Virus record (IMG/VR): IMGVR_UViG_3300027142_000028
Span: 1 to 32,029 of that record
DNA: 32,029 bases
Source: a virus
Direction: 5' to 3' (one strand)
Shown: positions 1 to 23,074 of the stretch, piece after piece
How positions within the stretch are numbered: position 1 is the first letter of the stretch
Layout of the letters: every line of letters begins with the position of its first letter
Program-made: the position numbers and the translations under genes
Notes under the pieces: generated by a model
Seen by the model: the letters and a program-made list of their open reading frames with translations, nothing else
What the model was told of the DNA's origin: nothing
Databases searched by the model: none

Positions 1-162
1 CTGTATTACTTTAGCACACGCAAGGCGTATAATCCATTCTTCTTCACTACTGTCAAGTAGCCGAATCGGATCTGTTTTGAAGAGGTCTCCAAGCCTCGCC
101 GCTAAAACTATGCGGAAATCGTCCGTTAAATCTCGGAAGACCTCTTCGTAGGGTCCAATGCG
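1..162 (-). CDS. Tail assembly chaperone, frameshift-encoded C-terminal part (partial at left edge)
   Basis: An open minus-strand frame runs from just after an in-frame TGA (163-165) to the left edge. It overlaps the 3' end of the upstream chaperone gene in the -1 frame. There is no ATG, GTG or TTG codon between that TGA and the end of the upstream gene (only an ATT), so it is unlikely to be started independently. After the overlap it reads as a sensible protein (PYEEVFRDLTDDFRIVLAAR, then a DPIRLL and an EEEWIIRLA segment). Tailed phages commonly make the longer chaperone form (lambda G/GT arrangement) by -1 slippage near the end of the first frame. The likely slip is at CCCT (minus strand, about 150-153), where tRNA-Pro can re-pair from CCT to CCC. 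The fusion would bridge tail subunits and the tape measure protein during assembly. The rest of the gene lies outside the window. Confidence 0.68.
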
Positions 163-662
163 TCAACTTGATCCCCGTAACCAGCAGCCTCAATAATTGC
201 AACTGCTGCAGATTCAACATGGGGTTCTAGCCCAAAAAAAGCCAAAACGCAATCAGGGTGCGGACGAGTGGTGTCTGTCATTTGCATAATTTCTGGTGAA
301 GCAAAAGTTACCTCAACACCACTTTCATCGGTAGCAATTTCGTCGTTTAACAAAATGCCAGTAGTGGTTGCGGCAATCAAGTTGGTTGAAAACTTCAAGG
401 TATCCATACCACCCTTGCGTTCTTCACCGGCGTTCCTACGCCAAGTCTTCAACTGTTGTTGTGTGATGTTTGGAGAAACACGAATCATTACACCTGGTCG
501 TTCAGGAATAGCGATATACACATCGTCACGGCGGACTTTTTCTTTGATTACCTTTTTAAGTTGATCTAAAACATTGTCAGAGTCGGCTATTTGCTGAGGA
601 CTTTTAGATGTCTTGGGTGTTTTGCTTTCACTATCTTCTGAACTGAATGTAATGTTGGTCAT
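126..662 (-). CDS. Tail assembly chaperone, first frame (G-like)
   Basis: This is the first protein of the putative chaperone pair, about 178 residues from ATG 662. A TTG start at 701 would give 191 residues; neither start has a convincing Shine-Dalgarno, so the start is uncertain. The N-terminal 40 residues are Ser/Lys-rich and probably disordered. The central part (IPERPGVMIRVSP, then FSTNLIAATTTGILL) and the C-terminal helical part (PHVESAAVAIIEAAGYGDQV) resemble small chaperones encoded between the tail tube and the tape measure. Function is inferred mainly from position, directly after sheath and tube, and from the -1 open frame overlapping its last codons. It would act in the cytoplasm during tail assembly and be absent from the mature virion. 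Confidence 0.66.
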   Translation of the reverse strand: MTNITFSSEDSESKTPKTSKSPQQIADSDNVLDQLKKVIKEKVRRDDVYIAIPERPGVMIRVSPNITQQQLKTWRRNAGEERKGGMDTLKFSTNLIAATTTGILLNDEIATDESGVEVTFASPEIMQMTDTTRPHPDCVLAFFGLEPHVESAAVAIIEAAGYGDQVDALDPTKRSSEI

Positions 663-721
663 GGACGCAACACTAACACGGCTCAAACCGTCAAAATGCA
701 ACCCTAAAACTCAGGGATTTA

Positions 722-1198
722 TTAGAAAGGCGCGTTACCTACAGAAACAGTGGCAACACTAAAGGTCAGCGTAAAGGTTGCTGGCGTTCCTGAAGTTGCA
801 TCACCGTCTGGCTCAGTCAAACCGACAAGCAAAGCCTTTGTGTACTGGCGGTCAGCGCCAGGAACAGCAATGTCGCAGTCAAAAAGATGAACATCAATGT
901 CGTAACGAACACGACCAACTACTTGACGCAACTGTTGGATTTTCCCAAGAAATGCGCTGTCTGTTGACACATAACCAGTCAATGTGATGTCACCAATTTC
1001 TGATGGCGCACAAAGTGTCTCGGAGAACAAGTCGCCACCGTGGTAAACCTTTTCTACCGAAGCAGTGATTTCTCCACCAGCGACCTGAGTGAAATAATCA
1101 GGGAATGTTGGAAGACCTGTTGTGCCTTCTGAAGGCGTGATCCTGCCAACAATTTGGCGTTGTGTAGCAAGATTTTTGAACAGTGTTGGACGAGCCAT
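722..1198 (-). CDS. Tail tube protein
   Basis: 158 residues, starting MARPTLFKN, with a strong GGAGG a few bases before ATG 1198. It lies 11 bases after the tail sheath gene, the normal order in contractile-tail phages (sheath, tube, chaperones, tape measure). The sequence is rich in beta-strand patterns (EIGDITLTGYVSTD, FTLTFSVATVSVG), as expected for the tube fold that stacks as hexamers to form the inner DNA conduit. Length suits tube proteins of myoviruses, which are usually 140-180 residues. Two internal Cys residues are present and nothing appears truncated. The assignment combines composition with position; I cannot quote an alignment. A less likely alternative is another small beta-rich tail protein. 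Confidence 0.8.
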   Translation of the reverse strand: MARPTLFKNLATQRQIVGRITPSEGTTGLPTFPDYFTQVAGGEITASVEKVYHGGDLFSETLCAPSEIGDITLTGYVSTDSAFLGKIQQLRQVVGRVRYDIDVHLFDCDIAVPGADRQYTKALLVGLTEPDGDATSGTPATFTLTFSVATVSVGNAPF

Positions 1199-1209
1199 TT
1201 ATTCCTCCG

Positions 1210-2673
1210 TTATGCCAAAGCAGTTGTTAGATTTGACTTGATTAAATCAACTTCAATTTTGTCTCCGACACTGGAAACACGAACACCGATTCTTGCCTTA
1301 ACTGTTCCTGTCTCAAGGTCAGCGACAGGGTTCAATGAATCGTCACACTTAATTGTGTAGCCGTAATCAATTCGCTTACCAAGGGAATCAAACCCTTCGT
1401 AGAAACCACCCTCAATGCGAATTGGTTCTACAACCGATTGAATGGCGTTGATGATATTTGCGAACAGTGTTGAACGACCGTCAATTGTTGAGAAGACAAG
1501 ATCTTCCAGGCGATTATTGGCTTGAACGGAAATATAGTTGATGACTTCTCGAGCGGTAATGAAACGCCACTGAGCAACAACTGATGAGTGAGAACGAGCA
1601 CCATAGATGCGAACTCGCCCGTTAACTAAACGCAAAGGGTTCACATATGATGTGTCCATCAAATCAGCATCCGCACGGCTAACCGCTTGAGTTAAACCTG
1701 AAACGAACCTTGCCTCTGATGCAACACCCGCATAAGCCTTCCACGGACCTGTGGAGTTGTGTGTACGAGCACGCACAGCGGCTACATACGCTTCTGGCGG
1801 TAATTCAACTGTTGCTGAACCCTGTGGGATGTAAACCCAAGGATGGTAGAAAGCCATGAATTCGTGCGAAGTTGTTCCTGTGTATCCAGTTGAAGCGGAA
1901 CGAGCCTGCGCCAAAGTGTTTGTTGAAGCAAAACCTGCCAACGCAACACGATTGTTTGCGGCTGCGTGTGTGCGAAGAGCATCATACAAAGTGGTGTCCG
2001 AAGAACCTGTAGCGATACCAGGTGCCGCTACAGCGCCTGCGCCAAGTTCTTCAGTGAACAAAGAAATTGCGGTGATGAAATCTGATTTCGCAACAGTGCC
2101 GTCAGAACCGTTTGACGGCGCCGAAGATGCTGCGGTTACCAACAGCGCTGTAGAAACAGCGGAAGCAGTCAGAGCGCAAGTTACATAGTTGGCGGCAGTT
2201 GTGTCAGCATTTACTGCTGTGACCAAAGCGCTCAGACCTTCATATCCTGTTCCCGAGAAAATCGTAGTGCCACTGTAAGTAATAGTGACATCAAAATTGG
2301 TTGTGTTGTTGGTGACAGCGAAACCCAAACTATTTCCCCACGCACCTTTGCTAACTGCAGTGAAAGTAACACCAGCAGCAGAAGAAGCCGCTAAAAGTGC
2401 TTTTGTTGCGGCGACGCCAGCGGCGGCATTAACTTTAACAAAGTAAGCGCTTACGCCACCTTCTTCAAAGAATGTTTTCATGGAATACCACGAATATGAG
2501 CCAGTTACATGCTCACCAAATTTTGTTTCAAAATCCGAAAGCGAAGTAACAGGAACGGCTACAGAACCTTTTCCACGCTCCGCTGTACCCAAAAGAAAAA
2601 ATGTTGCTGCTGGAGCAGTGCCAGTATTTGTTGCACCTGTACGAACTGCTGTTGAGATTGTTACGCCGGGCAT
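1210..2673 (-). CDS. Contractile tail sheath protein
   Basis: 487 residues. The N-terminus (MPGVTISTAVRTG, then FFLLGTAERGKGSVAVPVTSLSDFETKFG and YFVKVNAA) is the typical start of phage sheath proteins, where the first strand swaps between neighbouring subunits. The C-terminal third holds the conserved sheath core (RVRIYGARS, WRFITAREVINYI, GFYEGFDSLGKRIDYGYTIKCD). Residues of roughly 90-200 form a low-complexity Ala/Thr/Ser-rich segment, probably the surface domain facing the solvent. A GGAGGG site lies 6 bases before ATG 2673. The sheath polymerises around the tail tube and contracts during injection, so the phage has myovirus morphology. Confidence 0.95.
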   Translation of the reverse strand: MPGVTISTAVRTGATNTGTAPAATFFLLGTAERGKGSVAVPVTSLSDFETKFGEHVTGSYSWYSMKTFFEEGGVSAYFVKVNAAAGVAATKALLAASSAAGVTFTAVSKGAWGNSLGFAVTNNTTNFDVTITYSGTTIFSGTGYEGLSALVTAVNADTTAANYVTCALTASAVSTALLVTAASSAPSNGSDGTVAKSDFITAISLFTEELGAGAVAAPGIATGSSDTTLYDALRTHAAANNRVALAGFASTNTLAQARSASTGYTGTTSHEFMAFYHPWVYIPQGSATVELPPEAYVAAVRARTHNSTGPWKAYAGVASEARFVSGLTQAVSRADADLMDTSYVNPLRLVNGRVRIYGARSHSSVVAQWRFITAREVINYISVQANNRLEDLVFSTIDGRSTLFANIINAIQSVVEPIRIEGGFYEGFDSLGKRIDYGYTIKCDDSLNPVADLETGTVKARIGVRVSSVGDKIEVDLIKSNLTTALA

Positions 2674-2714
2674 CTAGCACCCTCCATTTGAGTTGAAGAA
2701 ATTTCCGTAAAACG

Positions 2715-2720
2715 AGTATA
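2715..2720 (-). promoter_or_regulatory. Possible -10 element before the sheath gene
   Basis: The minus strand reads TATACT in the 53-base gap before the sheath gene, where a strong structural-gene promoter would be useful. I see no convincing -35 at the normal distance, so this is only a candidate. Confidence 0.2.
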
Positions 2721-2726
2721 CATTAC

Positions 2727-3092
2727 TTAAACAGTCTTAACAGAAACATCATTATTTGATGGGACTATTTCTTTTTCATCTTTAATATCCTCAACCACAA
2801 CAACTAGATCTTCTGTGCCTGAACTGAGGGGCGGCTGATCTGTTGTAGGTAAAGACTTCTTTTTTTTTGAATTTTCATCAGATTGGGCTGAAGACACTTT
2901 GCTCAACTGACCCTCTAGGACTTCTAACAGCCCGGCGTCGATAAGAGCAACAATTTCATCGGTTTCTTCAACCCAAGCAGCGGTTTGCCCTGTAAGTAAA
3001 TGCCCTTCTTCGGACACATCAAGATACCCATTTGTCTTATTCCAGACACGAATAGTGCCTTTAGAACCTGATTTGCCGTAACTTGGTTCCAT
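2727..3092 (-). CDS. Small hypothetical protein upstream of tail sheath
   Basis: 121 residues. The ATG overlaps the stop of the upstream tail completion gene (TAATG), so the two are probably translationally coupled. The N-terminal half is a compact-looking segment (GTIRVWNKTNGYLDVSEEGHL, AAWVEETDEIVALIDAGLLEVLE). The C-terminal half is acidic and Ser/Lys-rich, with a run of four lysines, and is probably disordered. Many myoviruses have a short gene at this place between the tail terminator and the sheath, often of unknown function. I do not recognise a domain. Confidence 0.7.
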   Translation of the reverse strand: MEPSYGKSGSKGTIRVWNKTNGYLDVSEEGHLLTGQTAAWVEETDEIVALIDAGLLEVLEGQLSKVSSAQSDENSKKKKSLPTTDQPPLSSGTEDLVVVVEDIKDEKEIVPSNNDVSVKTV

Positions 3093-3703
3093 TAGTACGT
3101 TGCTCCCGTATTGCGCATGTTGTAGTTTTGTATGTCGTAGCCAGTTATAGCCGCAATTTGATCTCTATAAATCACTTCGTTCAATATCAAATTGTAGCCT
3201 AAATAAGCACCCGCTAATACTCGGTCGCCTTTAATGAGAGTTAAGTCAGAAAACTCTTCAGTAATAGAAGATTCGTCAATCATGACCTCTGCGTCAAAAT
3301 CACTGTCATACCGTGTCAAACAAGGCTTATCCATCAAAGCCGACCTAACAACCGTTGTCAACCTATCTCGCATCAATGTGACGGCTTCTGAACCCTCAGT
3401 TTTTGTCCAGATATATGTTCGCATATTGTAGGTGACCCTATAAAGAGGGTCGCCCTGAATACCTTGCATCAAGCGCTCAAAAGGGGAACTTGATAGACAC
3501 ACCGTAATAATGCTTGGCCAGTGGTCAAGAGCGATTGGTTCGTAAGTTAAGAAAAATTCAGGTGTTGGCAACTCATTTGAGTCAAGATTCCAACCAGAAC
3601 GGTAACGATTTATTCTGTTAGGTAAATCGCTATTCAAATATGTGTTGACATAGTACTTAGCCCACTGTGCGCCGTGCATTAAGTCTGTTACTGGTGTACT
3701 CAT
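3092..3703 (-). CDS. Putative tail completion / tail terminator protein
   Basis: 203 residues, with the start directly after the stop of the upstream gene (no gap). The pattern is that of small head-tail joining proteins that cap the tail tube: a middle strand set (YRVTYNMRTYIWTKT), a helix (EAVTLMRDRLTTVVRSALMD), then a late segment (DLTLIKGDRVLAGAYLGYNL, ILNEVIYRDQI). Such proteins form a hexameric ring at the top of the tail and contact the neck. Its position between the virion morphogenesis gene and the sheath fits this role. The assignment is by pattern and synteny; an alternative is another neck subunit. Confidence 0.6.
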   Translation of the reverse strand: MSTPVTDLMHGAQWAKYYVNTYLNSDLPNRINRYRSGWNLDSNELPTPEFFLTYEPIALDHWPSIITVCLSSSPFERLMQGIQGDPLYRVTYNMRTYIWTKTEGSEAVTLMRDRLTTVVRSALMDKPCLTRYDSDFDAEVMIDESSITEEFSDLTLIKGDRVLAGAYLGYNLILNEVIYRDQIAAITGYDIQNYNMRNTGATY

Positions 3704-4168
3704 TTATCGTGTTCTTCCGTCTGAAACATAATCTGCTGCCAATATTGCGAGACGTTCAGCAAATTGTTTTGGTTCGTAAATAATCTTTCGTTTAGGCATC
3801 TTACTCGTTCCGTATTGATGGAATTTTGCGTACTCTAAATCTGTACCAAAAGTTGCCGATTTCAATCTGATGCTGTTAGCAGGACCGTTTAAGGATCGCA
3901 ATTCTTTGAATAGTTTGCCAGACGCCACCATGATTGGGGCACCCGGAAACTTGGTTGCTTTCCATGCCGAGTAGCGAGGCTTAAGAGGAGACCATCCACC
4001 AACCGGCAAACCATTCTGCGCAAAGTTTGCTGCGTTTGCTTTTTCTAGTTCTCTTTTAGCCCATCGAAAAACAGGACGAAAATCTTTAGAACGACGCTCC
4101 ATGGCGTTCATTCTCGCTATAGCCGCACGAGCATCAACTTTGATTCTGATTCTTAAATCACTTGGCAT
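3704..4168 (-). CDS. Virion morphogenesis protein (Mu gpG / HK97 gp10-like)
   Basis: 154 residues, strongly basic. The layout matches the phage virion morphogenesis / tail completion S family: an N-terminal helix (AAIARMNAMERRSKDFRPVF), then NFAQNGLPVGGWSPL, YSAWKATKFPGAPIM, the GKLFKEL helix, the FGTDLEYAKFHQYGTSKMPK signature and a final basic RKIIYEP segment. These proteins help join heads and tails and may sit in the neck. It follows the connector gene with only three bases between them and is followed directly by the tail completion gene, forming a head-tail joining operon. Confidence 0.82.
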   Translation of the reverse strand: MPSDLRIRIKVDARAAIARMNAMERRSKDFRPVFRWAKRELEKANAANFAQNGLPVGGWSPLKPRYSAWKATKFPGAPIMVASGKLFKELRSLNGPANSIRLKSATFGTDLEYAKFHQYGTSKMPKRKIIYEPKQFAERLAILAADYVSDGRTR

Positions 4169-4171
4169 GAT

Positions 4172-5047
4172 TTAACCAATCCTGTTTCTGCGCCACCGTT
4201 TCACAGACATCAATTCTTTTTCTAAGAAACCTGTTTCCTGTAATGCAACTTCACGGGCTCCAAGATCTTTGATACCCACAACATCGTCGTGCATGTTTTG
4301 TACTTCGCGAGCCGCGGCACGAAGAATCATTAACTTAAACATTTTGATTCCATCACCCGCTAAACCAGCCGTGTAGGTCACGGTCACATTGTCGTTGGCG
4401 TATCCACGATAATAGTCAATGCCGTATGTGCGAACCGTGTAGTCGTAGCCGTATGCATTTGCGGTACCTGCTTGATTAAAAGTGCCCGCTGAGAGCCCAC
4501 TCTGTGAAACAACAAATGTATTAGTAGCAACAGAAGTAATAACCTTGGAAGTCAAATTTAATGCACTACTAGACATCCCCGTGATAGACACGGTTTGACC
4601 AATAGTCATACCATGACCAGAAGCAGTGTAGGTAACATTAGAACCTGACACCGTTGCTGAACTGATTGTTGCTTGCCTCTTTAACGCTTCACCCAAAGTT
4701 CGCTGAACTTCTGAAAGATTTTTGACGGTAACGCTTTGAACAGAAACAACAGGGGAGTTCTTTAAATAAATTGTTGGAGGGGGTGTGCCGTAGGTAATAA
4801 TCCCGACAGGATCAACATCGGTGGAATTGTAAACATCGTTGAAAAGACTTGAACCCATTGGCAAACCAACATGGTCAGAATCAAGAACATATGTTTCAAC
4901 GAATGACGCAACCTCAATGGGTCTACGCAGATATGTTTCTAACTCGCTTTGAAGACCATCAATAACAAATTGGGCGGCGTCTTCTTGCCTATTAGAGAAA
5001 CTTATATCCATATAAGTCTTTAGTTCAGATACCGTCACTAAAGCCAT
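4172..5047 (-). CDS. Head-tail connector protein with inserted beta domain
   Basis: 291 residues with a strong GGAGGT before ATG 5047. The N-terminal helices (LVTVSELKTYMDISFSNRQ, AAQFVIDGLQSELETYLRRPIE) and the C-terminal part (VTVTYTAGLAGDGIKMFKLMILRAAAREV, then MHDDVVGIKDLG) are those of gp6-like head-tail adaptors that attach under the portal and open to the neck. The family is usually 100-200 residues. Here residues of about 125-195 form an extra Thr/Ser/Val-rich beta segment (VTYTASGHGMTIGQTVSITG, TNTFVVSQSGLSAGTF), which looks like a small Ig-like or KOW-like barrel set into the adaptor. The insert may decorate the neck surface. Confidence 0.75.
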   Translation of the reverse strand: MALVTVSELKTYMDISFSNRQEDAAQFVIDGLQSELETYLRRPIEVASFVETYVLDSDHVGLPMGSSLFNDVYNSTDVDPVGIITYGTPPPTIYLKNSPVVSVQSVTVKNLSEVQRTLGEALKRQATISSATVSGSNVTYTASGHGMTIGQTVSITGMSSSALNLTSKVITSVATNTFVVSQSGLSAGTFNQAGTANAYGYDYTVRTYGIDYYRGYANDNVTVTYTAGLAGDGIKMFKLMILRAAAREVQNMHDDVVGIKDLGAREVALQETGFLEKELMSVKRWRRNRIG

Positions 5048-5527: not shown

Positions 5528-6076
5528 TTAACGGTCTTTGTTAGGTGGTCTTTCAATGTCCAAGGGTTGTTCAACAACTGGTTTGGCTACCTCTATTGGA
5601 ACCCAAGCCCGTGAATATTCATATTTCTGCCAGTTTTTCTTCTTAAGAAGACCATCAGACATAAGTAAATCAATTTCATCGTCATGCATTAAAAACAAGT
5701 TAGATAAATCGTTTTCTTCATACTTACCCGAGGCAATTAATCTCTTAACTGCCCTACTTAAAGCGTAAGCGTTGATGATGCCACGAGCACGATTTAGTCT
5801 GATGTGCATGATCATTGCCCCAACTTCATCCACATCTTTGTAAATCACAGGGACTAAACGCCCGTACTTTTTGATGAATTTTTCTTCATCAACGGAAATC
5901 AAATATCTTTGATAACCATCAATAATTGTATTATCAGATTTCTTTACAACTATTGGCTGTATCCATCCGTAGTCAATCATTGATGTTTTGAGCAGCATCT
6001 TTTCAGGACGCAGAATACTGTTTACCCCCCATTTGGCAATTTTAAGTTGTCTATTGTCTACAAGAGATATTTCCAC
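5528..6076 (-). CDS. ParB/sulfiredoxin-fold protein (IbrB-like)
   Basis: 182 residues from a GTG start at 6076; an in-frame TGA lies just upstream and the next Met is at residue 28, so GTG is the best start. The N-terminal 60 residues hold a ParB-type N-terminal core: INSILRP-like first strand, a helix ending YGWIQPIVV, and IIDGYQRY (51-58), which is the nucleotide/metal-binding motif region of this superfamily. The C-terminal half is helical and charged. It follows the PAPS-reductase-like gene after 39 bases. A ParB-like protein next to a PAPS-reductase-like protein is the known IbrB/IbrA arrangement, described as regulators in Escherichia coli and also seen on mobile elements. No ParA partner is present, so plasmid-type partition is unlikely. 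Confidence 0.72.
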   Translation of the reverse strand: MEISLVDNRQLKIAKWGVNSILRPEKMLLKTSMIDYGWIQPIVVKKSDNTIIDGYQRYLISVDEEKFIKKYGRLVPVIYKDVDEVGAMIMHIRLNRARGIINAYALSRAVKRLIASGKYEENDLSNLFLMHDDEIDLLMSDGLLKKKNWQKYEYSRAWVPIEVAKPVVEQPLDIERPPNKDR

Positions 6077-6115: not shown

Positions 6116-7249
6116 TTAGTAATCATCCCCTGCCTCAATAGCCTTCAGCCTCATCGTGTGTGCTCTAGTTTTTGGACCGACAGGGGTTGGTGTTGATTGA
6201 TGGAACTCATTCAAAAGCAGGGTTCTAACAAGGTACTCAAGAGGGAAACCATATGGGTCAACCGCCCGTTTTTTTCGGAAAGCAGAAGCAAATTTTAATG
6301 CGTCTAAACGCATACCCGGTGTGAGCATGTGATCGTCAATACACTCCGAAACCCCTTCCCAACTTTTTGATGCATAACTTAAAATCAATGATTCAATATC
6401 AAAGTCAGCCCAATATCTGCGTTGTGCATCTATCTGGGGGAAACAGCGGACAAGTTGATCGTAGAACTCAGGTTCAGTAGCAACGACATCTCCAATCCTG
6501 CGAATAGCGACGGAATGCAAAGGAATCCCTACACGACTGTTGCTACCAGTTAATTCGGCCAAATCATAATATTCGCAATACTCGGCTTTGTGTTCGTCAA
6601 TAATAAATTTAAGAACATCTTCGGTTGTCCAATCGTAAATAACTTTTGCAAATTTTAATGGAATAGATTTTTGTAGCAAGAATGGGGAAACAATATAATT
6701 TTCGTGAAGTTTTTGAACACACGACCGATACCTGACCATTGACTCGTTTGCTCTGACACCCATAACGAAAGCAGTTCTACCTTTTTTGCCTTGCATGGTG
6801 TAGTAATCAACAAGATTCGGACAAGGCTTAGACGGATCTAAACCAAAATGTTCTGCCCTAATAGCCCACTCGGGCATCTCTCTAACCAGGCGACCTTCTG
6901 CTTTTCTTTGAGGTGACCACAACAAAACATACTCTCGTCTACCTAAAACCCAAATTTCTTGACCCGATGGAAGGCAATACCACTCCATGTCAACCCAGTC
7001 ATACTGTCGGACTTTTTCAACAAAGGCAATTACTGACGGACTAACCATTTCTTCGTCACGAAAGATAACTTTTACTTTACCAAGATTTCTTTCCTCGTGA
7101 ATTTCTTTTGCAAGATAAATAATTGCCGTGCTATCTTTGCCTCCAGAGAATTGATAACAAACGGTGTCAAAAGTGTCGTAGACATGACGCAATCTTTCTC
7201 TTGCCGCATCCACGCAGGATGTATCAAGAAAAAGTCGCTGTCTTGTCAT
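6116..7249 (-). CDS. PAPS reductase-like PP-loop ATPase (IbrA-like)
   Basis: 377 residues. The PP-loop SGGKDST sits at residues 35-41, after a strand (DTVCYQF), the signature of the PAPS reductase / adenine nucleotide alpha hydrolase superfamily. The following segments fit the fold (VIFRDEEMVSPSVIAFVEKV for the second strand-helix, FVMGVRANESMVRYR for the later substrate loop, then a PFLLQKSIPLKFAKVIYDWTTEDV segment). Length and C-terminal extension are closer to DUF3440/IbrA-type proteins than to the 240-residue assimilatory enzymes. The paired ParB-like gene supports this. Possible roles are gene regulation or a nucleic-acid modification step; DndC, a relative in phosphorothioation, works with DndD/E, which are absent here. 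Confidence 0.78.
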   Translation of the reverse strand: MTRQRLFLDTSCVDAARERLRHVYDTFDTVCYQFSGGKDSTAIIYLAKEIHEERNLGKVKVIFRDEEMVSPSVIAFVEKVRQYDWVDMEWYCLPSGQEIWVLGRREYVLLWSPQRKAEGRLVREMPEWAIRAEHFGLDPSKPCPNLVDYYTMQGKKGRTAFVMGVRANESMVRYRSCVQKLHENYIVSPFLLQKSIPLKFAKVIYDWTTEDVLKFIIDEHKAEYCEYYDLAELTGSNSRVGIPLHSVAIRRIGDVVATEPEFYDQLVRCFPQIDAQRRYWADFDIESLILSYASKSWEGVSECIDDHMLTPGMRLDALKFASAFRKKRAVDPYGFPLEYLVRTLLLNEFHQSTPTPVGPKTRAHTMRLKAIEAGDDY

Positions 7250-11395: not shown

Positions 11396-11572
11396 ATGAA
11401 TATTTATCGCAAACTTAAGTTATTCGCCACACGCCGCAACCTTGCAAACTGTTTGATGTTTCTATTCGTCGTAGGCGTTACTTTAGGTGCTGGTCTTATA
11501 TTTCCGCCTGCGGGATTTATTACTGGTGGTATTGCTTGCGGAATCTATGGGTATCTGTTGGGATCTGAATAA
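11396..11572 (+). CDS. Small two-helix membrane protein
   Basis: 58 residues from ATG 11396, with AAGGTGA 8 bases upstream; a GTG at 11384 would add four residues but lacks a ribosome site. The first 16 residues are basic (MNIYRKLKLFATRRN). Two hydrophobic stretches follow, NCLMFLFVVGVTLGAGLIF and PPAGFITGGIACGIYGYLLG, joined by a Pro-Pro turn, so it should be an integral membrane hairpin with the positive end in the cytoplasm. The stop overlaps the portal start (TAATG). Holins also have this size and shape, but no lysin lies nearby, so I leave the function open. Confidence 0.68.
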   Translation: MNIYRKLKLFATRRNLANCLMFLFVVGVTLGAGLIFPPAGFITGGIACGIYGYLLGSE

Positions 11573-13782
11573 TGGCTTGGAACAGCAATAACAATAAGGA
11601 TCTCAGGAACATCAGTGAAAAAGCGATGTCCAATCCTGGCGCCCCTATTGCGTTTGATACACAACGAGCGGGCAAACCGTACAAAGACGGTTGGGATATT
11701 GAGCGTGCGTACCGAGACGGTATGCAAAAAGTTACATGGGTTTTCCGATGCATTGACGCAATTGCAGGAAACCAAGCACGCCTCCCAGTCATTTTAAGAA
11801 AAGGCAACGATCAACGCGGAGAAAAAACAAAAAGCAATGAATCTCTACTAGAAATTTTTAACTCAAAATCCAACGAAGGCGAAAATTCTTTTGCTTTCAG
11901 GTACAGAGTCTCAGCACAACTCTTAATGAGCACAAGAGGTGTTTTTATTGAGAAGGTTCGTTCTCGTGACGGCAAAATTATTGCCCTACAACTTTTGCCT
12001 CCCCAATTTACTGCTCCGCTTCCTGACCCGAAAAAATTTGTGTCGGGTTTTGAAGTCGATATGCGCAACGGAACAAAGTTCACTCTCAAACCAGAAGATG
12101 TCTGCTGGATTCGCAGACCACACCCGTTAGACCCATATCTTTCAATGACCCCAATGGAATCTGCTGGTATTGCAATTGAATTAGAAACTTTGTCAAAACT
12201 TTACAACCGCAACTACCTTCTCAACGATGGGCGACCTGGTGGGTTGCTTGTTGTTCGTGGCGACATGGAAGATGACGACAAACAAGAACTAAAAAACCGT
12301 TTTCGTGGCAACCTTTCAAAAACGGGTTCAACGACCGTTATTGCATCAGAAGCAGGTGTTGACTATGTGGATACTTCTGCATCACCACGAGATGCCGCCT
12401 ACACGCAAATGCGCGAAATACAAAAGAACGAAATCTTTGCCGCGTTCGGTGTTCCAGAATCGGTTATAGGTAACGCTGCTGGCAGAACTTTTGCGAACGC
12501 ATCTGAAGAACTGAGAGTGTTTTGGATGGAAACAATGGCTCCTCACCTACACACAATTGCTCGTGCACTTGATGAACTTGACGATAAATATTATGTTGAT
12601 TTTGACACTGACGATATTCCAATTCTTATTCTTGCCAAACAAGAGCGTGAACGCTATGTGATGGACGAATTTCAGCAAGGCTTAATTAGCCTCAACGAAT
12701 ACCGAAGCGCAACAGGTCGTAAAAAAGTTGAGTCAGAACTTGCTGACAGTCTCCTGTCCAACCCGAACCTCACACCTATCGCCAACACAGAGAAACCTTT
12801 TAAACCCGAAGAACAACAGCCAGTTGACATGGCGGGTGTTGATCCAAACGCTGTACCAGGCGGTCTCCCACCGCAAGAAGGCGCTATGGAAATGCCTCAG
12901 CCTGCACCACCATCGCCCATCCCCGCACCAGACCTACCAGCGGAAACACCAACAGAAACAGCGACTCTCACCCCCGACCAACAACTTTCTGAATTTGAAA
13001 AAATTCAAGAAGAGATGCAACTCAAGTTTCTCAACGAACTTGAAACAAAAGCAGATACCGACACCGACAGGTGGACGGAAATTATTGATCGTGCCTTAGA
13101 AAGACTTTTTGAAAGACAACAACGAGTTGTCATGGAAAAAGCATTTGGTAAACGTGGAGCGAAAGCGTTAGCGAGTGGTGCCTTAACAGTGGATATGGTC
13201 TTTGATCCTGAGGTATGGAACAAACAACTTGCAGACGATTTGGAGCCAATCATTGTCGCCATCTATCAAGATGCAAAAGAGTATGTTGCTTCACGAACCA
13301 GTGAAGAAGTAGCGCTTGAACCTCAGGAAGTTGAAAAACTTGCTCAGCAACAGATAGAAAGAATGCAACAAGCGAACACAAGCACAGCCGAGGAAATTGC
13401 TTCCGCTATTGCCGTTGCGTTAATGGAGCAAAACGAAGAAGACAAATCTGCGCTCTTAAGATTGGCTTTGATCGCAATATTCCTAAAACTTATTTCTAAG
13501 CGCAAACGAGACATTGCTGAACATGAAGCACAATCCTCCTATAACGGCGGCGTGTATTTGGCGGGCAAAGACAGTGCTGGTGGTTTCACGAAGACTTGGT
13601 TGACCCGAAAAGATTCCCGTGTTCGTACTGCTCATAAGTTTCTTGAAGGCAAGACAGTGAATTTTGGTGATGGATTTGTTGTTGACGGGATGATGTTGCG
13701 TTTCCCTGGCGATCCAATAGCCCCACCTGCTCTCACATTCAATTGTCGTTGCCGTCTTCGTTTTGGATTTAGCGAGGACTAG
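11572..13782 (+). CDS. Portal protein fused to a C-terminal MuF-like domain
   Basis: 736 residues. Residues 1-400 are an HK97-type portal: KVTWVFRCIDAIAGNQARLPV, the wing and stem region with AFRYRVSAQLLMSTRGVFIE, LNDGRPGGLLVVRGDM, and the clip/crown part AAFGVPESVIGNAAGRTFAN with MAPHLHTIARAL. Residues of roughly 400-480 form a Pro/Glu/Gln-rich linker. The C-terminal region is helical and ends in a MuF-type module (about 656-736): TWLTRKDSRVRTAHKFLEG, RFPGDPIAPPALTFNCRCRL. MuF proteins are minor head proteins thought to sit in the capsid near the portal; fusing it to the portal guarantees its copy number. It is twelve-fold by analogy, forming the DNA channel. Confidence 0.93.
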   Translation: MAWNSNNNKDLRNISEKAMSNPGAPIAFDTQRAGKPYKDGWDIERAYRDGMQKVTWVFRCIDAIAGNQARLPVILRKGNDQRGEKTKSNESLLEIFNSKSNEGENSFAFRYRVSAQLLMSTRGVFIEKVRSRDGKIIALQLLPPQFTAPLPDPKKFVSGFEVDMRNGTKFTLKPEDVCWIRRPHPLDPYLSMTPMESAGIAIELETLSKLYNRNYLLNDGRPGGLLVVRGDMEDDDKQELKNRFRGNLSKTGSTTVIASEAGVDYVDTSASPRDAAYTQMREIQKNEIFAAFGVPESVIGNAAGRTFANASEELRVFWMETMAPHLHTIARALDELDDKYYVDFDTDDIPILILAKQERERYVMDEFQQGLISLNEYRSATGRKKVESELADSLLSNPNLTPIANTEKPFKPEEQQPVDMAGVDPNAVPGGLPPQEGAMEMPQPAPPSPIPAPDLPAETPTETATLTPDQQLSEFEKIQEEMQLKFLNELETKADTDTDRWTEIIDRALERLFERQQRVVMEKAFGKRGAKALASGALTVDMVFDPEVWNKQLADDLEPIIVAIYQDAKEYVASRTSEEVALEPQEVEKLAQQQIERMQQANTSTAEEIASAIAVALMEQNEEDKSALLRLALIAIFLKLISKRKRDIAEHEAQSSYNGGVYLAGKDSAGGFTKTWLTRKDSRVRTAHKFLEGKTVNFGDGFVVDGMMLRFPGDPIAPPALTFNCRCRLRFGFSED

Positions 13783-13812
13783 TTTCAGTAAAATACCCTT
13801 GATATACTGAAA
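13783..13812. repeat. Inverted repeat with an embedded extended -10 candidate
   Basis: TTTCAGTA (13783-13790) and TACTGAAA (13805-13812) form a perfect 8-base inverted repeat with a 14-base spacer, directly after the portal stop. The right arm overlaps TGATATACT (13800-13808), an extended -10 promoter form, so it may be a promoter with an operator. A T-run starts 10 bases later, so a weak terminator is an alternative. Confidence 0.35.
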
Positions 13813-13838
13813 GTGTTCATTTTTTGGGGCTTCAAATA

Positions 13839-13855
13839 GTTTATTGTTAATAAAC
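13839..13855. repeat. Perfect inverted repeat before the prohead protease gene
   Basis: GTTTATT, a three-base loop, then AATAAAC. It lies 18 bases before the protease start at 13874 and could be an operator half or a weak RNA hairpin in the leader. Confidence 0.4.
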
Positions 13856-13873
13856 AAACATTTTTGGAGCATC

Positions 13874-16009
13874 ATGCCAACAGCAATATCTGAATCACAA
13901 CAATACAAAGCGCTACAAGGTCAATTCAACATTGACGAAGCACTTGGAGTAGTTGAATGTTTTGTTGCTGGCATTGGGAACAAGGACTCCGTTGGTGACA
14001 TCATCGTGCCAGGTGCTTTCAACGAAAGCCTAAAAAGGCGTAAACCACGGGTTGTATGGGGTCACAACTGGAATGAGCCAATCGGCAAAGTTCTTGACAT
14101 GTACGAAGTGCCGGCGTCAGATCCAAGGCTCCCAATGAAGATGCGTGCCGCGGGAATTGGTGGTCTTTACGCCAAGGTTCAATTCAATCTGAAGTCAGAA
14201 CGAGGCAAACAGGCTTTCGCTGATGTTGCCTTCTTTGGCGAAGAACAAGAATGGTCTATCGGCTACAAAACACTTGACGCTGATTTTGATCCTAAGCGTC
14301 AAGCCAATGTTCTTAAAAAAGTTGAACTCTACGAAGCAAGCCCTGTTCTTCACGGCGCAAATCAACTCACTGGCACTATTTCAATCAAATCAGTTGAAGG
14401 GCAAGATAACAACGAAAGCATTAAAGGTGAGATGCGTGGCGAAGATGGCAAACTCACAGAACAAGGTCGTTCGTTGCTGATGCGAATTTTGGAAAGCGGT
14501 ATGGCAAGACAAAAGCCTGAAGAAGAAAAGCCTCGCAAGGAGTCAGAAGAAGACGGCAACGATGACGCTGTCAATGCTCCGATGCCCGAAAAGGGACGCA
14601 AAGAAAACCTTCCATACGCCTTAGCAAAAAAGTTTGGTGGCTCAGTGCGGGTTAGGGAATCTGACGAGAACAGCGTCATTTTTGACCATCGTGGAGAAAC
14701 AGGCGAGATAGTCACAATGCGTCTCTCTTATCATTACGAAGACGATCAGTTCATGTTTGGTGAACCAACAAGAGTTAAACCACAAACCGTGTATGTCAAT
14801 GTTGATGGAGATAAGCCAAGTGGCTCTGATGGTGAACGTCGTTTTGAAGACCGATACCGAATGGAACAAGACCCTCAGGTGCCTGCTGGTGTGAAACCAA
14901 AGTCCCCAGAGAAGGCTGACCCTCTTGGTGGAATCATTCCACAAGAAATTGTCACTGCAAGAACTCGTGGGTACGGTCCTCGTAGGGGCAACCTTGAAAA
15001 GTTATTGCGCTACTGGCGCCCAATTATGCGCAAGCCAGGCGGTTTCCGACGATGCCGAGTGATTCTTGCAAACCACCCTGAGTTGTACCCGTTGAGCAAT
15101 ATTTGCGCTTGGCTTCACCACGAAACCACTGGTCTCTGGCCGAACGAAGGGTGCCATCACCCCGGCATGAAGAACTGCCGTGGCAAGTTAAAGAAGAACA
15201 ATTGGAGCGACTCGGAGTTCAGTGAGCGGTTGGGGTCAATACTTAAGCCAGGGAAATCTTTGGATTCCCTTAACGAACAAGACATCAAATCAATCTTTGA
15301 CTTCCTTGACAGCGAAGAAAAGGGATATGAAATGATGGAACAACTTGCTAGTCGCCTTGCCGAGGAAGACAAACCAAAAGGCGAAGAAGAAATGCAACTT
15401 GAAGATGTTGAATTTGAGAACGAAGACGAGGGCAACGAAAAGGCTTATGAGGCTCTTAAAGAGTTCATGAACTCGGAACCAGATTTCATCAACTACATGG
15501 CAGACAAAGATAATTGGGTCATGGAAGGCGATGACGATAAAGGTGGCGTCATGGAAATGCCTTACTACGACTCAGAAAAAGAACATGACTGCGGATGTGG
15601 TGGTGGGGAAAGCATGAGTCCTCAAAGCATGATTCCAATGTTGATGGCGGCTATTTCTGAACTGATGGGCAAAGATGCTGATGAAGACATCGAAGTCAAA
15701 GCAGGCAGGGTAATTAACTCTCGCAACATGGCAAAACTACAAAACGCCTTCAATCTCCTTAAAGAGGTGTTGAGTGCGGGTGGTGCTTTGTCTGATATTG
15801 AAGCCAAATCCTTACAAACTGACGAAAAAGAAACGCTTATGATTTCGTCCCCAGAACGATCATTGTATGAAGTTAAAGAACTTTTAGATCCAATTTTGGA
15901 TTACTACCAAATCAAATCAGAGGTTACGGAAGAAGGTGTACGAGTTGAAATTGATGGTGTTGAAGATGATGCGTTTGACGCACTGCTCAACATCATGGAC
16001 ATAATGTAA
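13874..16009 (+). CDS. Prohead protease (S78 / HK97 family) with long Cys/His-rich extension
   Basis: 711 residues from ATG 13874, preceded by GGAG; an upstream ATG at 13844 lacks a ribosome site. Residues 15-170 are the HK97-type serine protease: His64 in GHNW, Ser128 in EEQEWSIGY and Glu154 in ELYEAS make the expected triad. It cleaves the scaffold and capsid subunits during head maturation. The family is usually 180-250 residues; here another 500 follow. Around 370-440 is a compact basic segment with FRRC, ICAWLHHETTG and a GCHHPGMKNCR run, which could bind zinc. The rest is acidic with a CGCGGG patch, and the NSRNMAKLQNAFNLLKEVL segment resembles scaffold helices. A combined protease and scaffold is the likely role. 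Confidence 0.88.
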   Translation: MPTAISESQQYKALQGQFNIDEALGVVECFVAGIGNKDSVGDIIVPGAFNESLKRRKPRVVWGHNWNEPIGKVLDMYEVPASDPRLPMKMRAAGIGGLYAKVQFNLKSERGKQAFADVAFFGEEQEWSIGYKTLDADFDPKRQANVLKKVELYEASPVLHGANQLTGTISIKSVEGQDNNESIKGEMRGEDGKLTEQGRSLLMRILESGMARQKPEEEKPRKESEEDGNDDAVNAPMPEKGRKENLPYALAKKFGGSVRVRESDENSVIFDHRGETGEIVTMRLSYHYEDDQFMFGEPTRVKPQTVYVNVDGDKPSGSDGERRFEDRYRMEQDPQVPAGVKPKSPEKADPLGGIIPQEIVTARTRGYGPRRGNLEKLLRYWRPIMRKPGGFRRCRVILANHPELYPLSNICAWLHHETTGLWPNEGCHHPGMKNCRGKLKKNNWSDSEFSERLGSILKPGKSLDSLNEQDIKSIFDFLDSEEKGYEMMEQLASRLAEEDKPKGEEEMQLEDVEFENEDEGNEKAYEALKEFMNSEPDFINYMADKDNWVMEGDDDKGGVMEMPYYDSEKEHDCGCGGGESMSPQSMIPMLMAAISELMGKDADEDIEVKAGRVINSRNMAKLQNAFNLLKEVLSAGGALSDIEAKSLQTDEKETLMISSPERSLYEVKELLDPILDYYQIKSEVTEEGVRVEIDGVEDDAFDALLNIMDIM

Positions 16010-16069
16010 ATAATAAAAACATTTTTATGTTGGTTACATTTGTAGCAAAAACAAAAGACTAAGATGAGT

Positions 16070-16075
16070 TATACT
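16070..16075 (+). promoter_or_regulatory. Possible -10 box before the head accessory gene
   Basis: TATACT occurs in the 204-base gap that follows the protease gene. No good -35 lies at the normal distance. The gap also holds an AT-only inverted repeat near 16012-16027 and the hairpin at 16174-16195; otherwise I see nothing in it. Confidence 0.2.
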
Positions 16076-16173
16076 TCAATAACAGGTTTACCACAAAAAA
16101 CGGCAAAATATCAGTGCTTGATGTCAGGCGAAAAACGCTTGACACCTTGCTCTGTTTGCTCTAATCCATCACG

Positions 16174-16195
16174 GTGCATTGCGAAAACAATGCAC
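16174..16195 (+). promoter_or_regulatory. RNA hairpin just upstream of a ribosome site
   Basis: GTGCATTG, loop CGAAAA, CAATGCAC: a perfect 8-bp stem with an adenine-rich loop. It ends three bases before AAGGAG (16199-16204), the ribosome site of the next gene, so it could stabilise the mRNA 5' end or control initiation. There is no T-run, so it is not a terminator. Confidence 0.5.
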
Positions 16196-16213
16196 TATAA
16201 GGAGTCCACGAAC

Positions 16214-17560
16214 ATGGCTGATACGACACCAATAGTAAAACTTTTAGCAGACGGCGGAATTGAGTGCGCAAAAGGTTTGGAACTCAAAGATTGCGGCTAC
16301 AAGCCGGGAGCAAAAGTTTGTGGCAAGTGTGGAGCAAAGGCTGTCACGCAAACGGAAGAAGCCGTACCTGCTGACGCAGCACCAGAAGTAGCAACCGAAA
16401 AATCTGAATGGGTTACAGCCTCGGATGAAAAAGTAGCAAAGATGGCACATGAGGAAACAGAAATGGCAGAGGACGAAGAAATGCCTGCTCCTAAAAAGAA
16501 AAAGAAGCCAGCAATGCCAATGGTCGCCGAAGAAGAAGAGACGGACGACGAAGAAGAGGATATGCCAGAAGATCTTGACGAGGAAGAAGAGAAGATGTAC
16601 GGCGAGATTGAAAAAATGATGGAGCAACGCAAAAAGGCTCGAGCAAAGCGTATGGAAACAATGGGCGTCAAGTCAGCAGACTATGACGATCTTGCTTTTG
16701 TTTGCGCTATTGAGCGTCGGGTTTACGCAGGCGGTTCAGAAATTTGTGCATCATGCCCAGGTGGATGTGAACAACAAGACACAATGCCAAGTCTTCTAGA
16801 AGTTGAAGGTATGGCTGAGAGCATGTTTGCAGGAAAAGTTCTTGACTCAGGCTACGCAGATGAAGTTGATATTTTTGTTGTTGATGTTCAACGCAAAGAT
16901 GGAAAACCTGTTGAGGCTTACTTTGACGGAACAAGCGGAGAATGTATGGGTTGGCATCTTCTCAACGAAGACTTGATCGGTGAAGTAGCAACAGTTCCTG
17001 GTCAGAAAGTTATTTCGTTCAGTGAGGCTTCTGCTATCGCAACAAAGTCAATTGATGGTGAAGTTGTTTCTGTTGATGCAGATATGTTTGACGGATACGA
17101 CGCTTACGCAGTTGAAATTGAAGGCGTAGACGGAAAATCTTACGATGTTTATGTTGGGGTTGACGGTGAAATTCTCGGCTTTGATGAATACGAGCCAGAA
17201 GAAGCAGCCGACATTGACGAAGAAGTAGCCGACATTGCCTTGAAAGCAATGTACAGCGAAGATGAGCGCATGGAAATGGCTAAGGGCGGAATGGCAATGG
17301 CAGACGGCTCTTACCCAATCAAGGACGAAGAGGACTTGAAGATGGCAATTATGGCTGTCGGTCGTGCGAAAGACCAAGACGAAGCAAAAATGCATTGCAT
17401 GAAGCGCGCCAAAGAACTTGGGAAAGAAGACATGATCCCAGAATCATGGACTTCAGAAAAACCAAATGAAAAAGTTCTTCTTGACGATGAAGCAAAAGAG
17501 TTCTTGAGCAGTTTGATGGAACTTGAAATGCTCGAAATTGAAACAGGATTTGACAAATGA
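16214..17560 (+). CDS. Acidic head accessory protein with Cys-rich N-terminus and PepSY-like domain
   Basis: 448 residues from ATG 16214, which has AAGGAG; the frame stays open to 16064 but the hairpin and ribosome site argue against that start. Residues 1-50 hold CAKGLELKDCGYKPG and VCGKCG, a zinc-ribbon-like cluster. An acidic Glu/Lys-rich stretch follows (about 75-150), then CASCPGGC. Residues of about 215-325 show two strands-and-helix units (FVVDVQRKDGKPVEAYFDG; FSEASAIATKSIDGEV with YAVEIEGVDGKSYDVYVGVD) that resemble PepSY domains. The C-terminal motif DEEDLKMAIMAVGRAKDQ with KRAKELGKEDMIPESW recurs in head proteins of actinophages. A scaffold or decoration role is inferred from position after the protease. 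Confidence 0.72.
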   Translation: MADTTPIVKLLADGGIECAKGLELKDCGYKPGAKVCGKCGAKAVTQTEEAVPADAAPEVATEKSEWVTASDEKVAKMAHEETEMAEDEEMPAPKKKKKPAMPMVAEEEETDDEEEDMPEDLDEEEEKMYGEIEKMMEQRKKARAKRMETMGVKSADYDDLAFVCAIERRVYAGGSEICASCPGGCEQQDTMPSLLEVEGMAESMFAGKVLDSGYADEVDIFVVDVQRKDGKPVEAYFDGTSGECMGWHLLNEDLIGEVATVPGQKVISFSEASAIATKSIDGEVVSVDADMFDGYDAYAVEIEGVDGKSYDVYVGVDGEILGFDEYEPEEAADIDEEVADIALKAMYSEDERMEMAKGGMAMADGSYPIKDEEDLKMAIMAVGRAKDQDEAKMHCMKRAKELGKEDMIPESWTSEKPNEKVLLDDEAKEFLSSLMELEMLEIETGFDK

Positions 17561-20449: not shown

Positions 20450-20854
20450 ATGCAAAAAAACGAAGTCAACTTCAAGGCTTTGACTTTCATCTCAGAACAG
20501 ACAGCAAGCACTTTTAATTACGAAGTAAAGGGTGTTCGTGCTTTATGGGATCCGAGTCTGTCAATACCTGGCACTAATCGGCGTGGGGGTTGGCGTTGCC
20601 CTGTCGGTACTCGTTACGGCGGACAAATAACGGACAGATTCGGTCGCTCATGCGGATGGGGGGTTGCGAGGCGTATCGCTAATCAAATTGCCGACATCGG
20701 TGAACGTTTGGAAAACGTTGACGACCGCAAGCGCAATAATCGTCTTGCTAAACGGAATGCTCGCATGCAACGACTTTTGGCTCGACAGCAGAAACCTGGT
20801 TTGCTTGAGCGTGGCGCAAGAGGTGTCGCCGAAGCACTTGATGGCGGGCAAGCA
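20450..20854 (+). repeat. Shared N-terminal module, copy A
   Basis: First of three homologous coding segments. Over 38 codons from the WDPSL motif it differs from copy B at 21 codons, and only one changes an amino acid (Trp/Phe). Confidence 0.85.
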
Positions 20855-23074
20855 CCACAACAGCGTCCAAGAATTCCTGTTCAGCAACAGCGTCCACAAA
20901 TACCTATGCAGCCACCTCAACTTTCAGTTGCTGATATTGATCCAGTTTCACCTCGTCCTCGTCGCCGAAGAGGGAATCTTCGTGAATCAGAACAAAGACG
21001 AATGGAAAGAGAACTTGTAGAACCTGGCGCACCTCGTACAGGCGAACCACCAAAACCTAATAGACCAAGAGGACGACGAAGAGCCGCCACACAACAAGGC
21101 GCAAAGCGAACTGTGCGCAGAAAACCCGAAGCGGATTTTGTTGACGGGGTAAAACCTTCACCAACCGCAATCCCACAACGAAAACCACCGCCAGCGCCAC
21201 CAAAACCATTAGTTGTAGAACCAGATCCTAATTTCAATGCACCAGATTTAGGCGGAAGTGTTCCTGATGCTCGTTCAGAAAGAAATGTGCGTAACCGTTT
21301 CCGTGAACAAGGATTACCCGATACTGCATATTGGCGTGAACAAGATTTCCCTGAAGGGGAAGACAAGTTAGAACTTGAACGCAGGTTTGGACGTTATTAC
21401 GGTGAAGATAATAAACGTAACGCACGAGGCGATTATGTAAACCGAAAAATTAAAAAAGGGGCTAATCCACCAGCCCAACCAAGAAGCCAACCTCCTCAAC
21501 CACCAGCACAAGTTGAACCACCAGCAGCGGCTCAACGAGTGGGACCGCCACCAATACGTAGGGTATTAGATGTTGACGGAGAGTTTAACAAACCCGAAGA
21601 CCAACCAGTTAAAGACATAATAAAAAGAAATTTAAATAATTATGAACCTAATGCTTACAATAATTTACGCGGGTTGACCAAAGAACAATTGCAATCAAAG
21701 AAAGCACAATTGAAACAACGACAAGATCAAGTATTGGATAATCAGTTTAATATTCAATTGGCTTTTTGGTCTCAAGAAAAAAACAAAAACGAGACCGCTC
21801 GAGAGGCAGCGAGATCAATGTTGGTCAACGCACACCTTGAGCGCGAAAAAAATAAACTGGATCAAGAAGCAGTAGATATGCGAATGGTTGAAATTGATGC
21901 AGGTATTGAATGGCGTCAAAAACTTCCAAAACAATTACCTGCCGATCTGAGACCTCAAGTACAGGCACCACAAGCGCCAATCGCTGATGCCCCCGAGCCA
22001 CAAGGCGGTTTTGACGTTTCTCCACCAATTTCAAAAGATGATCACAAACCTAATTTGATTGGGAAAATAGGCGAAGATGGTTTACCTGATGTCAAAAGTG
22101 TACCTATGGGCAACAAGGGTATGGATAGCCCGCAAAAAGCAATTGATCATTTAGAAAAAGGTGGGGATCTTGCTGATGTTCCAGATGATCTGTTGAAAGA
22201 AGCACTCAATGGGGCGACTGTCAGATTCAGGACAGAGAATCTTGGTGGTGGTGGGGTTAACGCAAATGTATCGGGGAATATGACTTTGTTTTCTGATTCT
22301 TTGACTGGGAAAAAGTACTATTTGAAATACCAAATTGAGTCAGCAGCAAAAAATGAAGACTTCCACGAACTTATTGGAAATAACCTTGCTGGTCGTTTTG
22401 GTTTTCCTATTGGGGGTTTTAGGGTAGACAGTCCGCAACAGAGAGGCTTTGATGGCAATCCAGCAGATGTTGCAAATAACGGGCGTGCAATTCTGTTTGA
22501 ACACGCAGGAAACTATGTTGATGGTCCTTTAACGGCAGGTAGGGACGCTACTGCTCGTGATATAAAAGCAAGCGACCGTGTACGGGCAACATTGTTGGAC
22601 TTCACTATGGTCAACAGAGATCGTCATGGTGGAAACTTTTTTGTTTCAACAGATGCGAACGGAAAACGCAGATTTGTTCCAATCGACCCATCGCTCGGAT
22701 TTGACGCAGAATATGGTGGGCAAGTTCACTTAGGCTTTGAGGGGGACGACGCTGGGTTCATGGGGTGGTTGGGTCATGGTTATGGTGGCGGAAGAAACGA
22801 TATGGTTCGTTCGTTGCGTGAACAATATCTAGCGGGTTCTTTAAGTAGACGAGAAGTAACCGCAGCCGTAGCGGATGTTCAACAATCAATTCGCGAAGCG
22901 GAAAGAAAAAATCCGTATATGAACATGGTTGAAGACGCTTTGGTTACAGTGGGAGCCAACGGTCAGCGTAGACTTGCTCGGAGAGATAAGGTTATTGAAA
23001 GACCTCAAGCAAAAATGAAATACATTACAGATGTTGACCCATCTAGAATCGCTGGTTGGATTCTAGGGTTATGA
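20450..23074 (+). CDS. Large modular protein A: conserved N-terminal module plus kinase-like C-terminal domain
   Basis: 874 residues, starting one base after the previous stop. Residues 1-135 are the shared module, with WDPSLSIPGTNRRGG and Cys50-Cys68 (CPVGTRYGGQITDRFGRSC), then GWGVARRIANQIADIGERLE and a basic helix. Residues of about 135-380 are Pro/Arg/Gln-rich and disordered, with a LRESEQRRMERE repeat shared with protein C; 385-480 are charged helices. Residues 544-590 match protein B (GNKG, GGDLADVPDDLLKEAL). The C-terminal part looks like a protein- or lipid-kinase fold: Lys626 in KKYYLKY, a following helix with FHELIGNNLAGRFG, catalytic loop DFTMVNRDRHGGNFF (Asp724, Asn729) and Asp746 in PIDPSLGFD. 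HipA and PI3/4-kinase families share this DRHxxN ... D order. Substrate unknown. Confidence 0.8.
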   Translation: MQKNEVNFKALTFISEQTASTFNYEVKGVRALWDPSLSIPGTNRRGGWRCPVGTRYGGQITDRFGRSCGWGVARRIANQIADIGERLENVDDRKRNNRLAKRNARMQRLLARQQKPGLLERGARGVAEALDGGQAPQQRPRIPVQQQRPQIPMQPPQLSVADIDPVSPRPRRRRGNLRESEQRRMERELVEPGAPRTGEPPKPNRPRGRRRAATQQGAKRTVRRKPEADFVDGVKPSPTAIPQRKPPPAPPKPLVVEPDPNFNAPDLGGSVPDARSERNVRNRFREQGLPDTAYWREQDFPEGEDKLELERRFGRYYGEDNKRNARGDYVNRKIKKGANPPAQPRSQPPQPPAQVEPPAAAQRVGPPPIRRVLDVDGEFNKPEDQPVKDIIKRNLNNYEPNAYNNLRGLTKEQLQSKKAQLKQRQDQVLDNQFNIQLAFWSQEKNKNETAREAARSMLVNAHLEREKNKLDQEAVDMRMVEIDAGIEWRQKLPKQLPADLRPQVQAPQAPIADAPEPQGGFDVSPPISKDDHKPNLIGKIGEDGLPDVKSVPMGNKGMDSPQKAIDHLEKGGDLADVPDDLLKEALNGATVRFRTENLGGGGVNANVSGNMTLFSDSLTGKKYYLKYQIESAAKNEDFHELIGNNLAGRFGFPIGGFRVDSPQQRGFDGNPADVANNGRAILFEHAGNYVDGPLTAGRDATARDIKASDRVRATLLDFTMVNRDRHGGNFFVSTDANGKRRFVPIDPSLGFDAEYGGQVHLGFEGDDAGFMGWLGHGYGGGRNDMVRSLREQYLAGSLSRREVTAAVADVQQSIREAERKNPYMNMVEDALVTVGANGQRRLARRDKVIERPQAKMKYITDVDPSRIAGWILGL

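Follow-up and report, generated by a model that had tools for sequence, protein, structure and literature searches.

A conserved proline codon as the probable site of -1 frameshifting in the tail assembly chaperone gene of a tail sheath-encoding phage and its relatives

Described frameshift systems and the locus studied here

Frameshifting in tail assembly chaperones is widespread (PMC5009743), and the lambda G/GT chaperone is a described case (Xu, Hendrix and Duda 2004, cited in PMC5009743). The DNA analyzed in this work, referred to as the window, comprises 32,029 bases and is the whole of its IMG/VR record; its left end truncates a leftward gene pair, the first member of which encodes such a chaperone. 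In lambda, the slip site is a G/A-rich heptamer and a tail sheath is lacking. In contrast, the pivot in the window is a proline codon, C_CCU, and the phage has a tail sheath gene. Judged from its sequence, the site is a variant of the well-known chaperone frameshift; its slip context is uncommon, and its clade probably has a stimulator of its own.

The records of four Gordonia phages, GMA6, DalanDe, ChisanaKitsune and UBSmoodge, show the chaperone as joined frameshift genes, and for GMA6 the joined genes are also described in PMC4524720. These phages resemble the window in gene order, in C_CCU at Asp-Pro and in a homologous protein, which in GMA6 likewise belongs to PHROG 5088. They differ from it at the site itself, where they carry C_CCU_UUG, a canonical X_XXY_YYZ heptamer, and the window carries G_GAC_CCU_ACG. 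GMA6 (NC_030906.1, locus L038) has been described as a siphovirus with an unusually thick and rigid tail (PMC4524720). Genes at the same position in its relatives are annotated as tail sheath, its own as 'putative structural protein', and GMA6 may thus be a myovirus.

Arthrobacter phages such as BarretLemon, Wyborn, ArV1 and Abba are like the window in having GAC CCU followed by a non-slippery codon and the same overlap of reading frames, but in single-sequence folds they do not show the window's stem (see below). None of the 14 Arthrobacter records fetched is annotated as frameshifted: ten show a downstream hypothetical protein, four nothing at all. The Brevibacterium phage Cantare, also not annotated as frameshifted, has a hypothetical protein instead. 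In all of these records the chaperone lacks its second half, or that half has been given a probably false start, so that their annotation can be corrected.

For the slip itself, two other systems are informative. At the G_GAU_UUU site of pea enation mosaic virus, as would be the case in the window, the first codon is Asp and re-pairs partly on GGA, and the next re-pairs fully; blocking P-site re-pairing cut shifting to 36-40% (PMC4737148). This is, however, a plant RNA virus, with UUU rather than CCU. Re-pairing of a single proline tRNA from CCU to CCC has been tested in E. coli with C_CC.U, which shifted above background in the presence of the IS3 pseudoknot; tetramers hardly shift there without a stimulator, and C_CCU alone is weak (PMC4066793). 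Unlike the window's natural site, that construct is an artificial reporter with the IS3 pseudoknot, and the part of PMC4066793 available to us notes no natural C_CCU site.

The chaperone gene and its second reading frame

The features of the locus are collected in Table 1. The 0-frame start, ATG at 662, was picked by alignment to relatives. The gene had been predicted to encode a tail assembly chaperone, and this identity holds: the first ORF falls into PHROG 5088, with tail tube (PHROG 5102) and tail sheath (PHROG 23) genes upstream. The landmarks of the proposed shift were also placed correctly, namely TGA at 165-163, GGA at 156-154 directly before CCCT at 153-150, and the 0-frame TAA at 128-126. 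No Pfam model matched the chaperone or the -1 part, the -1 part had no match in PHROGs, and no phage tRNA was found within the 32,029-nt window.

Table 1. Positions of the features discussed, in window coordinates
Feature	Position	Strand	Basis or remark
Tail assembly chaperone, 0 frame, putative lambda gpG-like role, 178 aa	126..662	-	PHROG 5088, E 1e-12
TAA ending the 0 frame	126..128	-	8 codons past the slip codon
TGA opening the -1 frame	163..165	-	translation
C_CCU, putative slip tetramer (tRNA-Pro CCU -> CCC)	150..153	-	C_CCY in 151/151 readable sequences
G_GAC_CCU, partial heptamer around the slip; upstream tRNA-Asp could co-slip GAC -> GGA	150..156	-	
-1 extension (lambda T-like part)	1..153	-	cut by contig end; conserved protein in the alignment of relatives
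Stem, 5' arm	132..147 (147-139 and 136-132)	-	consensus fold, 22 relatives
Stem, 3' arm	79..93 (93-89 and 87-79)	-	consensus fold, 22 relatives
Tail tube gene, upstream	722..1198	-	PHROG 5102, E 4.5e-16
Tail sheath gene (contractile tail)	1210..2673	-	PHROG 23, E 4.3e-43

The wider setting shows some further features. The structural block is split in an unusual way, with neck, tube, sheath and chaperone genes on the minus strand (1-5047) and portal and head protease genes on the plus strand (11572-16009). Three large plus-strand ORFs of 498, 874 and 1173 aa (16064-17560, 20450-23074 and 26784-30305) with absent or weak PHROG matches sit where the structural region would be expected. The window also carries an auxiliary metabolic gene for phosphoadenosine phosphosulfate reductase (6116-7249, minus strand; PHROG 2302, E 1.7e-76), adjoined by a ParB-like gene (5528-6076). 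The chaperone gene also contains seven consecutive T at about 233-239 (minus strand; 0 frame GCT TTT TTT GGG), which give a further heptamer with the look of a strong slip site, U_UUU_UUU. Slippage at this run would soon be terminated, and it is not conserved, since relatives such as L033 have GCT TTC TTT; L011 has eight T here, which is either an indel or a sequencing error.

From 162 on the minus strand, the -1 frame reads RIGPYEEVFRDLTDDFRIVLAARLGDLFKTDPIRLLDSSEEEWIIRLACAKVIQ and is free of stops to base 1, as predicted. Its end can be read in relatives. L002 is identical to the window across the 662 shared bases and contains the complete -1 extension of 65 residues beyond the shared proline, closing 15 residues past the window edge. 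In L020 the -1 frame stops at 5753 and a 1192-aa ORF follows from 5802, in line with the expectation that the frame would close before the tape measure gene. This ORF matches a PHROG of unknown family, and the label 'tape measure' hence rests on its position and length; in annotated isolates, the gene after the -1 ORF is the tape measure gene.

A tblastn search with the 54-residue -1 peptide matched the tail chaperone region of Cantare better than chance (E 5e-4) and, weakly (E 0.4 to 6), the corresponding region of the Gordonia phages DalanDe and GMA6 and the Arthrobacter phage Wyborn. Of the 23 records returned, 17 were capsid genes of Stenotrophomonas phages at chance level. Furthermore, past the 0-frame stop, variable sites among 23 distinct clade relatives were distributed as 16, 10 and 34 over -1 codon positions 1, 2 and 3 (53 sites each), the skew expected if the -1 frame is translated. 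By this pattern, the -1 frame appears to be translated in the relatives.

The second frame had been described as having no normal start, and this was confirmed for L002 and 15 more of the 25 closed -1 ORFs in the window's clade, which are devoid of ATG, GTG and TTG. The other nine have one or two such codons, the earliest 48 bases past the slip. Over all 78 closed distinct -1 ORFs, 26 have none of the three codons and 52 have some; three of the 81 distinct regions (see below) are open at the contig end and were excluded from start-codon and length counts. In high-GC isolates, GTG and TTG codons lie mostly within the conserved domain, which is where annotators have put the start of a 'hypothetical protein'.

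The slip codon and its changing partner

Scans of viral contigs and a phage collection yielded 156 loci besides the window's own (L001); the scan of the cellular genome collection (genome_contigs) gave no relative. With a profile of 19 chaperones, the 0-frame ORF was detected in all 157. Five loci that run off their contig (L033, L034, L082, L092, L096) were left out, as was L011 with its upstream indel, yet L011 has the exact slip motif further downstream. Each of the 151 readable sequences has a single C_CCU or C_CCC, read in the 0 frame, downstream of the -1 stop and among the final 20 codons. The overlap is kept in all of them, and a readable relative without it, which would have spoken against the original prediction, was not encountered. 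The predicted tRNA-Pro slip from CCT to CCC is borne out to the extent that CCCT, or CCCC in a few cases, is invariably present.

Many of the loci are repeat fetches of one contig, and we therefore collapsed them to 81 distinct 180-nt regions. Their sites are GGACCCT (44), AAACCCT (27), CGACCCT (4), AAACCCC (3), AAGCCCT (1), GGACCCC (1) and TGACCCT (1), so that the slip codon is CCT in 77 and CCC in the rest. At 70% identity, these sites form 18 lineages. The slip codon is CCT in 16 of the 18 lineage representatives (3.2 expected from the proline codons of the same genes) and either CCT or CCC in all 18 (8.8 expected). Some of the preference for T may be due to the following -1 codon, of which this T is the first base. 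In 18 of 18 representatives the codon preceding the proline ends in C, compared with 13.3 expected from the codon use of the same genes.

Could the second ORF be a gene of its own, with a separate start, perhaps the rare ATT at 159-157, or coupled to termination of the first gene? Ten of the 14 Arthrobacter records and Cantare are so annotated, with a 'hypothetical protein' that starts within the -1 frame. However, these annotated starts mostly fall inside the conserved domain, the ORFs of L002 and 15 other clade members offer none of the usual start codons, and the ATT is not kept, the corresponding codon in relatives being ATT, GTT, AGT or TAT. A separate gene would also leave the conservation of CCCY unexplained, and we consider it extremely unlikely. 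It is almost certain that the frame change reflects neither an error in sequencing or assembly nor a broken gene. The ORF is cut by the end of the window, a metagenomic contig, and L011 does carry an indel in the upstream T run; the same arrangement nevertheless recurs in 81 distinct sites from many metagenomes and cultured isolates, and both frames look coding. An independent start, reinitiation and sequencing error were all rejected for the second ORF after these tests against relatives.

A real shift might still use another position in the overlap, which is about 12 codons long in the window, or another mechanism (+2 ribosomal movement, transcriptional slippage), as sequence alone cannot time the event. 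In DalanDe, however, the -1 stop TGA abuts CCC and the 0 frame ends three codons on. This tight overlap leaves three codons for the event and pins the shift to a few bases, with little room for another site. No second C_CCY occurs within the last 20 codons of any readable overlap, and the sole run at the site, CCC, is too short to make polymerase slippage likely. A different site or route is hence very unlikely. Since every readable relative retains the slip site, the frameshift is very probably real, and we conclude with high confidence that the chaperone is made in two lengths through a -1 frameshift on the proline codon CCU, from 152-150 to CCC at 153-151.

We infer the following course of events. 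Most ribosomes would end at the 0-frame TAA and release the 178-residue protein. A minority would slip back by one base, with tRNA-Pro re-pairing from CCU (152-150) to CCC (153-151), and read on in the -1 frame to a long product of about 236 residues with a T-like C-terminal domain. For a proline tRNA with GGG anticodon, wobble pairing would be better after the slip (U to C), which would fit the preference for CCU. In the window, the upstream tRNA-Asp probably moves too, from GAC to GGA, as at the plant-virus site G_GAU_UUU, and shifting is probably made more frequent by the stem-loop, seen in this clade alone, that starts 2 nt past the site. If the two products work as lambda G and GT do, coating of the tape measure protein would fall to the short one and recruitment of tail tube subunits to the long one.

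With CCU preceded by C at 153-150, the window has a Z_ZZN tetramer. It has no canonical X_XXY_YYZ heptamer, as GGACCCU has GGA for its first triplet; relatives with AAACCCU or CCCUUUR do have one. The original prediction of an unusual slip site thus stands for the window's G_GAC_CCU. It does not extend to relatives with canonical A_AAC_CCU or C_CCU_UUR at this proline, and the tetramer C_CCU has been tested for shifting in E. coli (PMC4066793). Among the top matches of a full-text search of openly accessible papers there was no report of the window's site; we make no claim that it is unpublished.

As read from the codons, the proline tRNA appears constant across the family and its partner varies. 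G_GAC_CCU is present in the window and most Arthrobacter phages, and other relatives have A_AAC_CCU, a canonical heptamer. In four lineages (Cantare; DalanDe; GMA6; ChisanaKitsune with UBSmoodge) the proline codon is followed by UUR, which creates canonical C_CCU_UUR. Where UUR is absent (14 lineages), the P-site codon is preceded by a copy of its own first base (G_GAC or A_AAC) in 13 lineages; the sole exception is Abba, whose C_GAC_CCU_ACC provides the bare tetramer only. Restricted to codons with synonyms, the match in these lineages is 12 of 13 (5.2 expected, P 2e-5) in a test conditioned only on the absence of a following UUR, and in the UUR lineages it is 1 of 4 (1.0 expected). Fisher's test of 13/14 against 1/4 gives P 0.019; this test and the preceding-base test assume independent lineages, which these are not fully.

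The family may thus keep the C_CCY pivot and swap the partner tRNA, with Asp or Asn upstream, Leu(UUR) downstream and none in Abba; G_GAC_CCU in this family would then represent a two-one-three slip class, and its Arthrobacter and Brevibacterium members would carry unannotated frameshift proteins. We give this reading about an even chance. The label two-one-three is what GGACCCT would be called under PRFect naming, going by the names alone; the eight backward motif names in the part of the PRFect paper available to us do not include it. Motif-based finders limited to listed patterns could miss G_GAC_CCU. Such a natural series, in which the proline tRNA is fixed and its partner changes, would let the share of each tRNA in bacterial -1 shifting be measured.

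A stem after the slip codon in the window's clade

The original account of the slip site did not include the downstream stem-loop of the window's clade. This is a bulged stem of 14 pairs that starts only 2 nt after CCCT, closer than the spacing rule of 4-10 nt used in PMC4066793. In the consensus fold of 22 distinct sequences, all 14 pairs are unbroken and the few changes lead to G-U pairs. Covariation was not seen, as no stem pair is altered on both sides in these 22 sequences.

Synonymous diversity, analyzed in 25 of the 26 clade members, has an observed/expected ratio of 0.25 over -1 codons 9-25, compared with 0.73 upstream; the remainder of the -1 ORF is likewise lowered, at 0.54 (permutation P 0.008). 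At -1 codons 20-25, in the 3' arm, the ratio is 0.22; upstream, all 77 windows of 17 codons have ratios of at least 0.58. Constraint in the loop is similar to that in the arms, so selection may act on something beyond the stem. Of versions recoded at random with synonymous codons, 14 of 1000 folded equally well. The folding z-score is -3.5 for 80 nt and a less striking -1.86 for 99 nt.

Beyond this clade, RNAalifold found no consensus pairs in the A_AAC clade (28 of 30 sequences), and a family-wide downstream structure was not found, with single-sequence z-scores from -4.8 to +1.0 over 24 representatives. Searches of three loci against Rfam gave no match. It is likely, although unproven, that the clade-specific stem stimulates shifting.

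Two smaller observations concern the flanks of the site. By eye, a loose Shine-Dalgarno-like GGGGA lies 18 nt upstream of the window's CCCT; the range searched in PMC4066793 was 6-17 nt. A second nearly invariant synonymous stretch covers -1 codons 45-57 in L002 and the clade, partly beyond the left edge of the window. It reads TGT GCT AAA ... ATA ... GAT AGA GAA AAA CAG GAA in 25 of 25 sequences; codon bias may account for GAA and AAA, though not obviously for TGT, GCT, ATA and AGA.
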